This document shows positions 27,410 to 48,995 of a stretch of 64,000 bases of DNA, one piece after another. The DNA is from Actinomycetota bacterium (GTDB taxonomy: Bacteria; Actinomycetota; Actinomycetes; Nanopelagicales; Nanopelagicaceae): NCBI GenBank assembly GCA_016870895.1, contig VGAA01000003.1, positions 1 through 64,000 of the forward strand. The letters are read 5' to 3'. Position 1 is the first letter of the stretch. Each line of letters opens with the position of its first letter. Position numbers and translations under genes: made by a program. A model generated the notes under the pieces. The model was given only the letters and a program-made list of their open reading frames with translations, did not search any database and had not been told where the DNA came from.

Positions 27410-27478
27410 TAGACGCCCCCAAATAAATATCGGGGTACGCAAAAGAAAATGACGTAATAACAGCCCGCCACTTACACA

Positions 27479-27600
27479 CATTTTCTCTCATCCGGACTTT
27501 AACCGTCGGTCTTGGAGTTTCACCAAGTCCACCGCTAGCTGGATGCAGGCGGGTCGCAGACTTTAACTGCCGGTTCGGAATTACACCGACCCCGAAAATG
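27479..27600 (-). promoter_or_regulatory. FMN riboswitch (RFN element) upstream of ribD
   Basis: Minus-strand sequence CATTTTCGGGGTCGGTGTAATTCCGAACCGGCAGTTAAAGTCTGCGACCCGCCTGC...GGACTTGGTGAAACTCCAAGACCGACGGTTAAAGTCCGGATGAGAGAAAATG matches the RFN consensus blocks, and P1 closes with CATTTTC/GAGAAAATG. Confidence 0.95.
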
Positions 27601-27662
27601 CAGCTTGAGTGTACCAAAAAATTATTATTATACAAACTGAAAATAAGCGTAATTTTATATAG

Positions 27663-45807: not shown

Positions 45808-47124
45808 ATGAGCTTCGGTTTCCTACCAGCAGATGGGCAGCCTGACTTTGAGGCGCTGTTTAAAAAATTCTCAGAAATGGGGATTGATTCTGAAACTTTA
45901 GCTGGTGCTAAATCCTTTATTGAAAATATGCAATCTCCCACTGCGGCTAATCAAAACTTAATCAACCCAGCAACTCTTCGATCAATCGCTAAGAAAATAA
46001 TTGCAACCAAAGGTGATTTACCAGTCGGCATAACTGATCAACGGGAGATGGCGGACTCTATTGCGATTGCTAATACCTGGCTGGATACTGAAATTTTATT
46101 TCCGGCAGCTACCTTGCCCTCCGATAGCGCATGGTCCAAGGGAGTTTGGCTAGAGGAGTCATTATTCGGCTGGCAGCGGCTGATTGAACCCCTGGCAGCC
46201 GGTATGGCAGATGCCTTAGCAAAGGTGATAACTAACCCAACCACCGCACTTCCAATTGAAATCACCGCTCAGGTCGATCAATCTCCAGAGCAACAAGAGG
46301 TAATGAAGCAGATGGTGGCGAAACTTCTCCGAAGTTTTATGGGCACGCTAATTGCCAACCAATTAGGACAAGGAATTGGGCTGTTAGCTAACTCTATTAC
46401 TAGTGCTAATGATGTAGCTATTCCGCTACTTACCTCCAATAGTGGTCCACATTTAATTCCACAAAATATAAATGAGTGGGCACAAGGCTTAGGAATTGAA
46501 AAATCGGAAGTTAATCTCTATTTAGCATTACGAGAGGTGGCGGCGAGTAGATTATTTTCAAATAACACCTGGCTGCACTCCTACCTAACTGATGCTATTA
46601 CCACCTATGGCCAAGGAATCACTATCGATGTTGAATCTATTACTCGCCAAGCCGAAGCGGCGATGAGTTCTGGCGATATTGATATCAATGACCCACAATC
46701 AATTAATATCGCTTTGAACTCAGGCCTATTCACACCGCAGCAAACTCCAGCTCAAGAGCAAGCATTAACAAAATTAGAGATGGCTTTAGCCTTAATTGAG
46801 GGCTGGATTGATCATGTTATTTCCCAAGTGGCAGCCGATCGAATCCCAAGTTTTAATGCATTAATTGAAAATTCTAGACGCCGACGTGCAACTAGCTCTC
46901 CTATGCAACAGATGTTTGCTAGTTTACTTGGTTTAGAAATTTCACCAAGAAAATTAAGGGAGTCAGCCACTTTTTGGGGTGAGGTAAAGAAATTACGCAA
47001 TTCAGATGGTCGAGATAAATGTTGGGAAGATCCAGCATTTTTACCAATGCCTAAAGATTTAACTGATGTGGCGGCGTTTTTAGATAGCGTGACAGTTCCA
47101 GATGATCTATCTGGATTGATTTAA
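45808..47124 (+). CDS. DUF2342 family protein (putative zinc-dependent metalloprotease / hydrolase)
   Basis: 438 aa; MSFGFLPADGQPDFEALFKKFSEMG, ALALIEGWIDHVISQVAADRIPS; syntenic with Rv3195. Confidence 0.85.
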   Translation: MSFGFLPADGQPDFEALFKKFSEMGIDSETLAGAKSFIENMQSPTAANQNLINPATLRSIAKKIIATKGDLPVGITDQREMADSIAIANTWLDTEILFPAATLPSDSAWSKGVWLEESLFGWQRLIEPLAAGMADALAKVITNPTTALPIEITAQVDQSPEQQEVMKQMVAKLLRSFMGTLIANQLGQGIGLLANSITSANDVAIPLLTSNSGPHLIPQNINEWAQGLGIEKSEVNLYLALREVAASRLFSNNTWLHSYLTDAITTYGQGITIDVESITRQAEAAMSSGDIDINDPQSINIALNSGLFTPQQTPAQEQALTKLEMALALIEGWIDHVISQVAADRIPSFNALIENSRRRRATSSPMQQMFASLLGLEISPRKLRESATFWGEVKKLRNSDGRDKCWEDPAFLPMPKDLTDVAAFLDSVTVPDDLSGLI

Positions 47125-47147
47125 AGTTAGATTTTAAAAAGCGAAAT

Positions 47148-47280
47148 CCCCGGCCGCACATTTCCTATCTGCCTTCCCCTTGCAGATATGAAACGGTTAT
47201 CCGGGGACTTCGTAGCGCTAACTTAGGTTAATCAATCCGGATAATCAACTTGATCCGACCAGTTATTTGGCGTTTTTTTA
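47148..47280 (+). ncRNA. Candidate structured RNA / attenuator of unknown class
   Basis: CCCCGG...CCGGGG enclosing perfect hairpin TATCTGC-CTTCCCCTT-GCAGATA; mutually exclusive 10-bp pairing GGTTATCCGG (47195-47204) with CCGGATAATC (47237-47246); then GTTTTTTT. Confidence 0.4.
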
Positions 47281-47443
47281 AGTTTTTTTTGGCCAGAATC
47301 TGGTAAATTGAAGATGTTGTAATCAAAAAACATTTCGTGCGGTATGCCTAAATATAAAGTCGATATAGGTATGCGTAAAATTACCTAATCTCTGTGGATT
47401 AACCTGTGGAGATAACCTAAATTATGGTGGATAAAAAGAGGTA

Positions 47444-48076
47444 ATGGTGGATAACTTTGAACAGGAAATTCTTTTTGGAGATTTACTGCCACCAATAGCC
47501 CAAATTTCAAAGCGCAGAACCAAGCGAACCTCATTATTACCGGACGGGTTACCAGAGTTTAAGGTGGTTAGAAGTCGAAGGAGACGAAGCAGTATTAGCG
47601 CCTACCGACAAGGTGGTGTAATTCAGATCAGTATTCCATCTGGGATGAGTAAGCAGGATGAGATCGCAGCCATCCCCGAGATGATCGCAATGGTTTTGCG
47701 ACGAGAGGCAAGAGAGCGAAAAACCGATGATCAATTGATGCAAATAGCACTTGAGCTCTTATCAAAACTGCTACCTGAATTTGATATCAAACCGGCAAGT
47801 ATTAACTGGCGCAATATGAGTGAGCGATGGGGCTCTTGCACCACAGTTGATCGGACCATCAGAATTTCAGATCGCCTAATTGGTGCACCCACCTATGTTT
47901 TACACTACATAATTTTTCATGAGCTAATACATCTTAAAGTTCCAGGCCATGATCAAGATTTCAAAAATTATTTACACCGATTTGGTGATCTAAACCGGGC
48001 TGAAGCCTTCCTGGAAGGTTTTGAGATTGGTTGCCAAGTTGGTAACTCTGGTGTGATGTCGGCGGTAAATATCTAG
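47444..48076 (+). CDS. YgjP-like (DUF45) zinc metallopeptidase
   Basis: WGSCTTVDRTIRISDRLIGAPTYVLHYIIFHELIHLKVPGHDQDF (HExxH variant HELIH). Confidence 0.88.
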   Translation: MVDNFEQEILFGDLLPPIAQISKRRTKRTSLLPDGLPEFKVVRSRRRRSSISAYRQGGVIQISIPSGMSKQDEIAAIPEMIAMVLRREARERKTDDQLMQIALELLSKLLPEFDIKPASINWRNMSERWGSCTTVDRTIRISDRLIGAPTYVLHYIIFHELIHLKVPGHDQDFKNYLHRFGDLNRAEAFLEGFEIGCQVGNSGVMSAVNI

Positions 48077-48233: not shown

Positions 48234-48392
48234 ATGGCAGAAGAGTACAAGGGTGAGGCCTACTGCGTTAAGTGCAAAGAAAAGCGCTCTTTTGAAGGAC
48301 ATGTAAAGGTCTCTGATTCTGGTCGCCGCATGGCGCAAGGAATCTGCCCAGTTTGTGGCACAAAGGTAAATCGAATTCTTGGTAAGGCTTAA
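48234..48392 (+). CDS. Small two-CxxC zinc-ribbon protein (DUF5679-like)
   Basis: MAEEYKGEAYCVKCKEKRSFEGHVKVSDSGRRMAQGICPVCGTKVNRILGKA; SD GGAGGAAG immediately upstream of ATG 48234. Confidence 0.82.
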   Translation: MAEEYKGEAYCVKCKEKRSFEGHVKVSDSGRRMAQGICPVCGTKVNRILGKA

Positions 48393-48481: not shown

Positions 48482-48922
48482 TTAACTTGCTACGGCAACC
48501 TTTGCCGGTCTACCTGGCAATCTCTTGCTCTGAATTACTTGACCTTCATCAAATAACTCTCCGCCCCAGACACCGCATGGCTCAGCTCTAGATAGTGCAG
48601 CAGTTAAGCACTTAGCTCGTACTGGGCAGAGGCCACATAGCGCTTTAGCTTGGGCAATTACTGGTGCACTTTCGCTAAAAAAGAGCTCTGGATCGGCTGT
48701 ATGGCAGGGTAGAGAGAGTGGCTGGACTGGGCTCTTAATTTCAGGAGCGAAAGGATTATCAGCGCGCTTGTAATCACCCTTGGCCGTTGAGTTTGTGCTG
48801 TAGTCGGTATAGGAGATTACTGGTGCATCATCATATGCCCAGGTGACATCGGCCAATCCGATTTTTGCAGTTGGGCCTTCTGCCCAACCTGGGATTAGTA
48901 GTTCGCTGAAGAGAACGGTCAT
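48482..48922 (-). CDS. whiB7: WhiB7-like Fe-S transcription factor with long N-terminal extension
   Basis: SLPCHTADPELFFSESAPVIAQAKALCGLCPVRAKCLTAALSRAEPCGVWGGELFDEGQVIQSKRLPGRPAKV; four Cys, GVWGG, AT-hook-like GRP; immediately downstream of uvrD2 as in mycobacteria. Start MTVLFSEL (48922) is favoured over GTG 48931. Confidence 0.85.
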   Translation of the reverse strand: MTVLFSELLIPGWAEGPTAKIGLADVTWAYDDAPVISYTDYSTNSTAKGDYKRADNPFAPEIKSPVQPLSLPCHTADPELFFSESAPVIAQAKALCGLCPVRAKCLTAALSRAEPCGVWGGELFDEGQVIQSKRLPGRPAKVAVAS

Positions 48923-48995
48923 CGTTCTCACCTTTCCTTTCGTTATCTTTCATTGGTTTTATACTTCTTGCCTATTGGCTTTTATTGTTTTGGAG

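Follow-up and report, generated by a model that had tools for sequence, protein, structure and literature searches.

The spacer at positions 47125-47443 of the window (the whole 64,000-nucleotide stretch of DNA that was analyzed) is 319 bp long and extends from the stop codon of a DUF2342 gene (47124) to the next start codon (47444). The gene before it encodes a Zincin_2 metallopeptidase (45808-47124, plus strand; Pfam PF10103) and the gene after it a YgjP/SprT-like metallopeptidase (47444-48076, plus strand; PF01863), both assigned from Pfam matches and synteny. Next comes a gene for a zinc-ribbon-like DUF5679 protein (48234-48392, plus strand; PF18930), for which distribution was considered as well. 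A WhiB family regulator on the minus strand (48482-48931; Pfam Whib) is WhiB7-like by its C-terminal motif and neighborhood. Elsewhere in the window, an FMN riboswitch (RF00050) at 27476-27603 on the minus strand scores 106 bits, which is well above its gathering score.

All of the sequence elements given in a preliminary description of the spacer are present. CCCCGG and CCGGGG flank TATCTGC (47166-47172) and GCAGATA (47182-47188), which enclose a 9-nt C-rich loop on the plus strand. The segment GGTTATCCGG (47195-47204) can alternatively pair with CCGGATAATC (47237-47246) by nine Watson-Crick pairs and one G-U pair, and plus-strand T-tracts of seven (47273-47279) and eight (47283-47290) nucleotides lie further along. 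When a 176-nt stretch is compared with dinucleotide shuffles, both strands fold better than expected (z = -2.6 for plus and z = -3.6 for minus).

Comparative analysis bears out the claim of a structured RNA in this spacer. Of 100 related genomes searched by BLAST with the spacer, 54 have a match. These 54 belong without exception to the family of the window, and its more distant members keep only a conserved core (approximately query positions 10-127) rather than the whole spacer. In an alignment of 49 home-family sequences to a two-helix structure (A2), 95.6% of cells pair and 11 of 25 pairs have changed on both sides (5.4 in shuffles). None of 500 shuffles reaches this covariation, and slid controls score far lower. 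Single-base length changes inside the element in the same alignment argue against a coding function. A class-wide alignment of 40 distant examples plus ten from the home family (A5) has 92.2% of cells paired and 20 of 23 pairs changed on both sides, with 183 double-changed cells versus 57.5 in shuffles, and here too none of 500 shuffles matches the observed covariation, which also stands far above slid controls. A covariation analysis of the kind that had been proposed as a check recovers strong covariation of the outer and inner helices, both within the family and across the class.

The strand of this RNA is indicated by the wobble pairs of its outer helix. All 55 wobble cells are G-U when the minus strand is read, whereas on the plus strand every one of them would be A-C, and the consensus folding energy is -34.5 kcal/mol for minus versus -17.7 kcal/mol for plus. 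These two results place the RNA on the minus strand, as do the promoter and U-tract described below, and not on the plus strand that the earlier reading had implied.

The predicted minus-strand gene encodes an RNA of about 78 nt (47136-47213), and the R1 covariance model matches it at 47137-47214 with 99.5 bits. Promoter spacing and the U-tract place its 5' end near 47213 and its 3' end near 47136. Folded alone, the 78-nt RNA has an MFE of -38.3 kcal/mol (z = -5.45). The outer helix, P1, consists of 12 pairs between a 5' arm, CGAAGUCCCCGG (47201-47212), with compensatory changes, and a 3' arm, CCGGGGAUUUCG (47142-47153), in which the G-U cells fix the strand; 99.6% of its cells are paired in 43 distinct sequences. 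P1 is separated from the inner helix by an internal loop. Its 5' strand, AUAAC (47196-47200), is nearly invariant in the home family, has similar counterparts in several other families and is absent from Nocardioides-like ones. Its 3' strand, GUGCGG (47154-47159), as placed in the A2 alignment, is mostly UGCGC in the family, and its first G can also join the inner helix as a basal pair. The two arms of the inner helix, P2 (47182-47195 and 47159-47172), also carry compensatory changes, from UAUCUGC/GCAGAUA to UAUCAGC/GCUGAUA, UGUUUGC/GCAAACA and others. P2 is capped by a 9-nt apical loop, AAGGGGAAG (47173-47181), which is nearly invariant across the class: it occurs in 49 of 49 home-family sequences and in 48 of the 50 in A5. 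One sequence (L270) retains it despite a closing stem altered to CAG/CUG. In family f26, one relative (L133) shows the loop variant CGCAGGGGAAGGCAG, with DnaA boxes close by. P1 is followed by a U-tract (47136-47140) that resembles the 3' end of an intrinsic terminator. Most home-family members retain this tract, and GC-rich lineages often lack it, so the 3' end of the RNA is uncertain in the latter.

A sigma70-type promoter is found directly upstream of the hairpin, with a -10 hexamer TAAGTT (47220-47225, minus strand) that fits the TAnnnT consensus and a -35 hexamer TTGATT (47243-47248) at a 17-nt spacing from it. The pattern TTGnnn-N16..19-TAnnnT occurs upstream of 186 of 190 unique instances of the RNA versus 4.7% of shuffles. 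The spacer is 17 or 18 nt in 185 of these 186, and the distance from the promoter to the loop mostly falls in a narrow range. The two plus-strand T-tracts appear as A-tracts upstream of the -35 hexamer when read on the minus strand (47273-47290), where they may serve as an UP element and not as a terminator for the plus strand. With its own promoter, a conserved structure and no sign of coding, the element is very likely an independent small-RNA gene, and this prediction is well supported.

The RNA is transcribed convergently with the DUF2342 gene and divergently from the YgjP-like gene in the window. In most lineages it lies near DUF2342, YgjP-like and DUF5679 genes, and its placement relative to the YgjP-like gene (divergent, upstream or downstream) depends on the lineage. 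This variable orientation to its neighbors suggests that it is a transcription unit of its own and not the leader of one gene. An obligate partnership with DUF5679 was considered and set aside because the co-distribution is loose and confounded by descent. DUF5679 is present in most RNA-bearing genomes and also in many genomes that lack the RNA, and the link may be one of shared neighborhood only.

Of 395 genomes sampled from the class, 137 have a match to the R1 model (E <= 0.1), a few of the weakest matches being terminators, and the RNA is almost always present in a single copy. All 41 of the home-family genomes drawn carry it. In the genome that contains the window, which is 64% complete, the loop together with its closing pairs is found a single time. 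Among the matches with names are many Nocardioides, Nanopelagicales/acI and Frankiales MAGs. A draw from the phylum scored with R1 (E <= 0.01) adds few others, and this count is a lower bound because R1 is tuned to the home family. Two of them (L130 and L132) are genuine; both belong to a single family that lies outside the class but within the phylum, and their RNAs are accompanied by DnaA boxes spaced 12 nt apart. Weak model matches in families f4, f17 and f19 look like ordinary GC-rich terminators. Pattern matches in Blastococcus, Actinoplanes, Actinomyces, Microvirga, Salinivenus, Bacteroidales and Elusimicrobia have no R2 match and are attributed to chance. Phage-borne copies were also dismissed, as eight pattern matches on viral contigs have no R2 match and are missing either the hairpin or its promoter context. 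Contigs labeled as Fonsibacter and Spirochaetaceae MAGs (L209 and L210) carry the actinobacterial RNA, and for this reason they are probably mis-binned actinobacterial contigs.

Inspection of the region upstream of the RNA revealed repeated TTGTCCACA/TTATCCACA sites that resemble DnaA boxes. In the window there is one such site, TAATCCACA, at 47393-47401, and TTATCCACC occurs both at 47426-47434 and over the first codons of the metallopeptidase gene (47446-47454). All three are on the minus strand with one mismatch, and the full 64 kb contains 18 such sites on both strands together. Among 145 dereplicated loci, counting boxes with at most one mismatch, the upstream regions hold 309 boxes in the sense orientation (the RNA strand) and 22 in the antisense orientation, compared with 8.3 expected from shuffles; the corresponding numbers for the downstream control region are 2 and 8. 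At least two boxes are present in 101 of the 145 loci and at least three in 62, most commonly with a spacing of 12 nt, and 29 have no box at one mismatch. Without any prior motif, the commonest upstream 8-mers are TCCACAGG, GTCCACAG, TCCACAGC and TGTCCACA. As a positive control, the dnaA loci of the same genomes show the same box consensus and pairs 12 nt apart, so that the locus has the box cluster, matching the consensus at the genome's own dnaA, that is expected of a DnaA-regulated locus. In the genus of the window, 180-240 bp separate the boxes from the predicted transcription start of the RNA, and the boxes run as far as the beginning of the metallopeptidase gene. Because they extend this far, they could instead serve the YgjP-like gene in this genus, which would then itself be DnaA regulated. 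Elsewhere, boxes accompany the RNA where no YgjP-like gene is seen nearby or where it is not divergent (L090/L103, L089/L091 and L099/L117). The RNA is separated from dnaA by 12-20% of the chromosome in complete home-family genomes and by 25-33% in family f26, and this distance indicates that the locus is not oriC. We consider a linkage of the RNA gene to DnaA probable on the basis of these box patterns.

The scan against known families that had been recommended earlier returns none: Rfam 15 (4227 models) gives no gathering match at this place in the window, and in E-value scans of the spacer and six distant homologous loci all Rfam scores are far below gathering. Bacterial small SRP RNA (RF00169) is likewise a small hairpin RNA with a purine-rich tip, but it does not match the locus and scores above cut-off elsewhere in seven of seven relatives. 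6C RNA (RF01066) is an actinobacterial hairpin RNA composed of two stem-loops with C-rich loops. It has no match at the locus, where there is instead one hairpin with a G-rich loop. The locus also has no match to 6S RNA (RF00013). Ms1 is structurally related to 6S RNA as a long hairpin with an internal bubble, and both are much longer than the approximately 78 nt found here; the present RNA differs as well in its nearly invariant apical loop and in an internal loop that is not kept class-wide. Ms1 is reported to be a small RNA of the majority of Actinobacteria, and it was found by gene synteny (PMC9130861; PMC4191392). A full-text search of open-licence papers finds no description of the RNA, which apparently represents an undescribed family.

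Two known systems resemble the DnaA-box arrangement. The datA and DARS loci of E. coli are DnaA-box clusters in non-coding DNA away from oriC, a likeness that concerns box arrangement and chromosome position alone; unlike in those loci, the boxes here precede a conserved RNA gene that has a promoter of its own. In Mycobacterium tuberculosis, one of the five DnaA-bound regions detected by IDAP-seq, Rv3843c-RVnc0040, adjoins an annotated ncRNA, and its homologue in M. smegmatis is DnaA bound by ChIP-seq (PMC7738170). The small RNA MTS2975 lies between Rv3843c and Rv3844 (PMC3207917), and we infer that RVnc0040 and MTS2975 are the same ncRNA. The region offers an independent example in which DnaA binds beside a small RNA. 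The likeness is one of arrangement, and the neighboring genes are not those found here. Genomes of family f4, presumed from their size to be mycobacteria-like, have no genuine match to the RNA, their weak match being a terminator. A mycobacterial counterpart was set aside, as 200 kb from each of two of these genomes contain neither a DnaA-box cluster nor such a loop.

The explanation that we favor, with somewhat more confidence than doubt, is a self-contained small-RNA gene, read from the minus strand and probably controlled by DnaA, whose product would act in trans through its loop. Transcription would begin from the sigma70-type promoter at the base of the hairpin, and the resulting RNA of about 78 nt is predicted to fold into the 12-bp outer helix, the small internal loop and the inner helix, leaving the 9-nt purine loop exposed. 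Judging from the covariation and from the promoter and terminator sequences, the outer helix and U-tract would then end transcription. By binding the one-way array of boxes some 60-240 bp upstream, DnaA most likely sets the timing or level of this transcription, which would tie the RNA to the replication cycle. Because much of a major bacterial class keeps one copy of this structured RNA, with a loop that hardly changes, its role is likely to be a general one. A more specific version, which we put forward tentatively and at less than even confidence, is that the DnaA array switches the single-copy RNA and that the loop captures a conserved protein, thus reporting the state of DnaA or replication to the rest of the cell in a system old enough to be shared by two classes of the phylum. 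If true, replication control in Actinobacteria would have an RNA-based branch that has not been described before. Even if only the DnaA control of the promoter is correct, the RNA would be an output of the replication initiator in Actinobacteria that include the freshwater acI lineage and culturable Nocardioides, and a full-text search of open-licence literature finds no report of a link from DnaA to an RNA output.

The plus-strand riboswitch or attenuator that was originally proposed is almost certainly not the correct reading. Inverted repeats fold on either strand, which is why a plus-strand structure can be drawn at all, but the minus-strand G-U pairs of P1 would become A-C mismatches, and the alternative helix is not conserved. 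Apart from the window, only its closest relative (L002, 91%) has the CCGGATAATC partner required for mutually exclusive helices, and the plus-strand T7 and T8 tracts keep neither their position nor their length among relatives. These observations make the switch most likely a chance feature of the genome that contains the window. Its layout fails as well: the transcript converges on DUF2342 with no same-strand gene downstream in the window, its orientation to neighbors differs among lineages, and we find no conserved alternative helices ahead of a regulated same-strand gene. Rfam is silent as well. Of the kinds of RNA that had been offered, a small RNA is the one that stands. Reading the minus strand as a cis-acting element, either a terminator between convergent genes or the leader or attenuator of a neighbor, fares slightly better but is still very improbable. 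P1 with its U-tract does resemble a terminator, and a DUF5679 or YgjP-like gene is downstream on the same strand in several lineages. A terminator would not need an invariant loop, however, many GC-rich instances have no U-tract, and the promoter found in nearly every instance and the changing orientation to neighbors both favor a separate gene.

Two further possibilities accept the minus-strand transcript but change what it does, and we regard each as unlikely, though deserving of more weight than a cis element. In one, the DnaA-box array would be the main element, titrating or modulating DnaA in the manner of datA or DARS, with the RNA or its transcription as an accessory that resets the nucleoprotein complex. 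The dense one-way boxes, often 12 nt apart and far from dnaA, are compatible with such a role, and in E. coli read-through transcription of a tRNA is reported to dissociate IHF from datA (PMC10950094). Against it, the boxes vary more than the RNA in number and position, some loci lack recognizable boxes, and the nearly invariant loop together with the covarying stems implies selection on the RNA product rather than on transcription alone. In the other, to which we give an equally low weight, the RNA would be an antisense-type regulator whose G-rich loop pairs with C/U-rich mRNA, the 16S anti-Shine-Dalgarno sequence or C-rich loops of small RNAs. The loop is exposed and purine rich, and by reasoning rather than computation AAGGGG could pair with the anti-Shine-Dalgarno CUCCUU with one G-U. 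In three complete small genomes from the genus of the window, however, the 12-letter complement of the loop plus adjoining letters is matched nowhere but at the RNA gene, and sites with one mismatch show no excess over a backwards-pattern control. On these counts, pairing along the full loop with some other RNA was rejected, although a 12-letter pattern is a crude test that is silent on seed pairing of 6-7 nt. The conceivable C-rich partner 6C RNA was found in just one of 12 genomes tested from the carrier lineages, and near-invariance of the loop across a whole class would be unusual for pairing with mRNA.

For the trans-acting small RNA that we prefer, protein binding by the loop is thus more likely than long base-pairing, as the loop remains fixed across lineages of very different base composition. 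The internal loop may provide a second contact site. In the A5 alignment it takes a GAUAAC or GAGAAC / GCGA-type form that is common to many families and is absent from the Nocardioides-like sequences.
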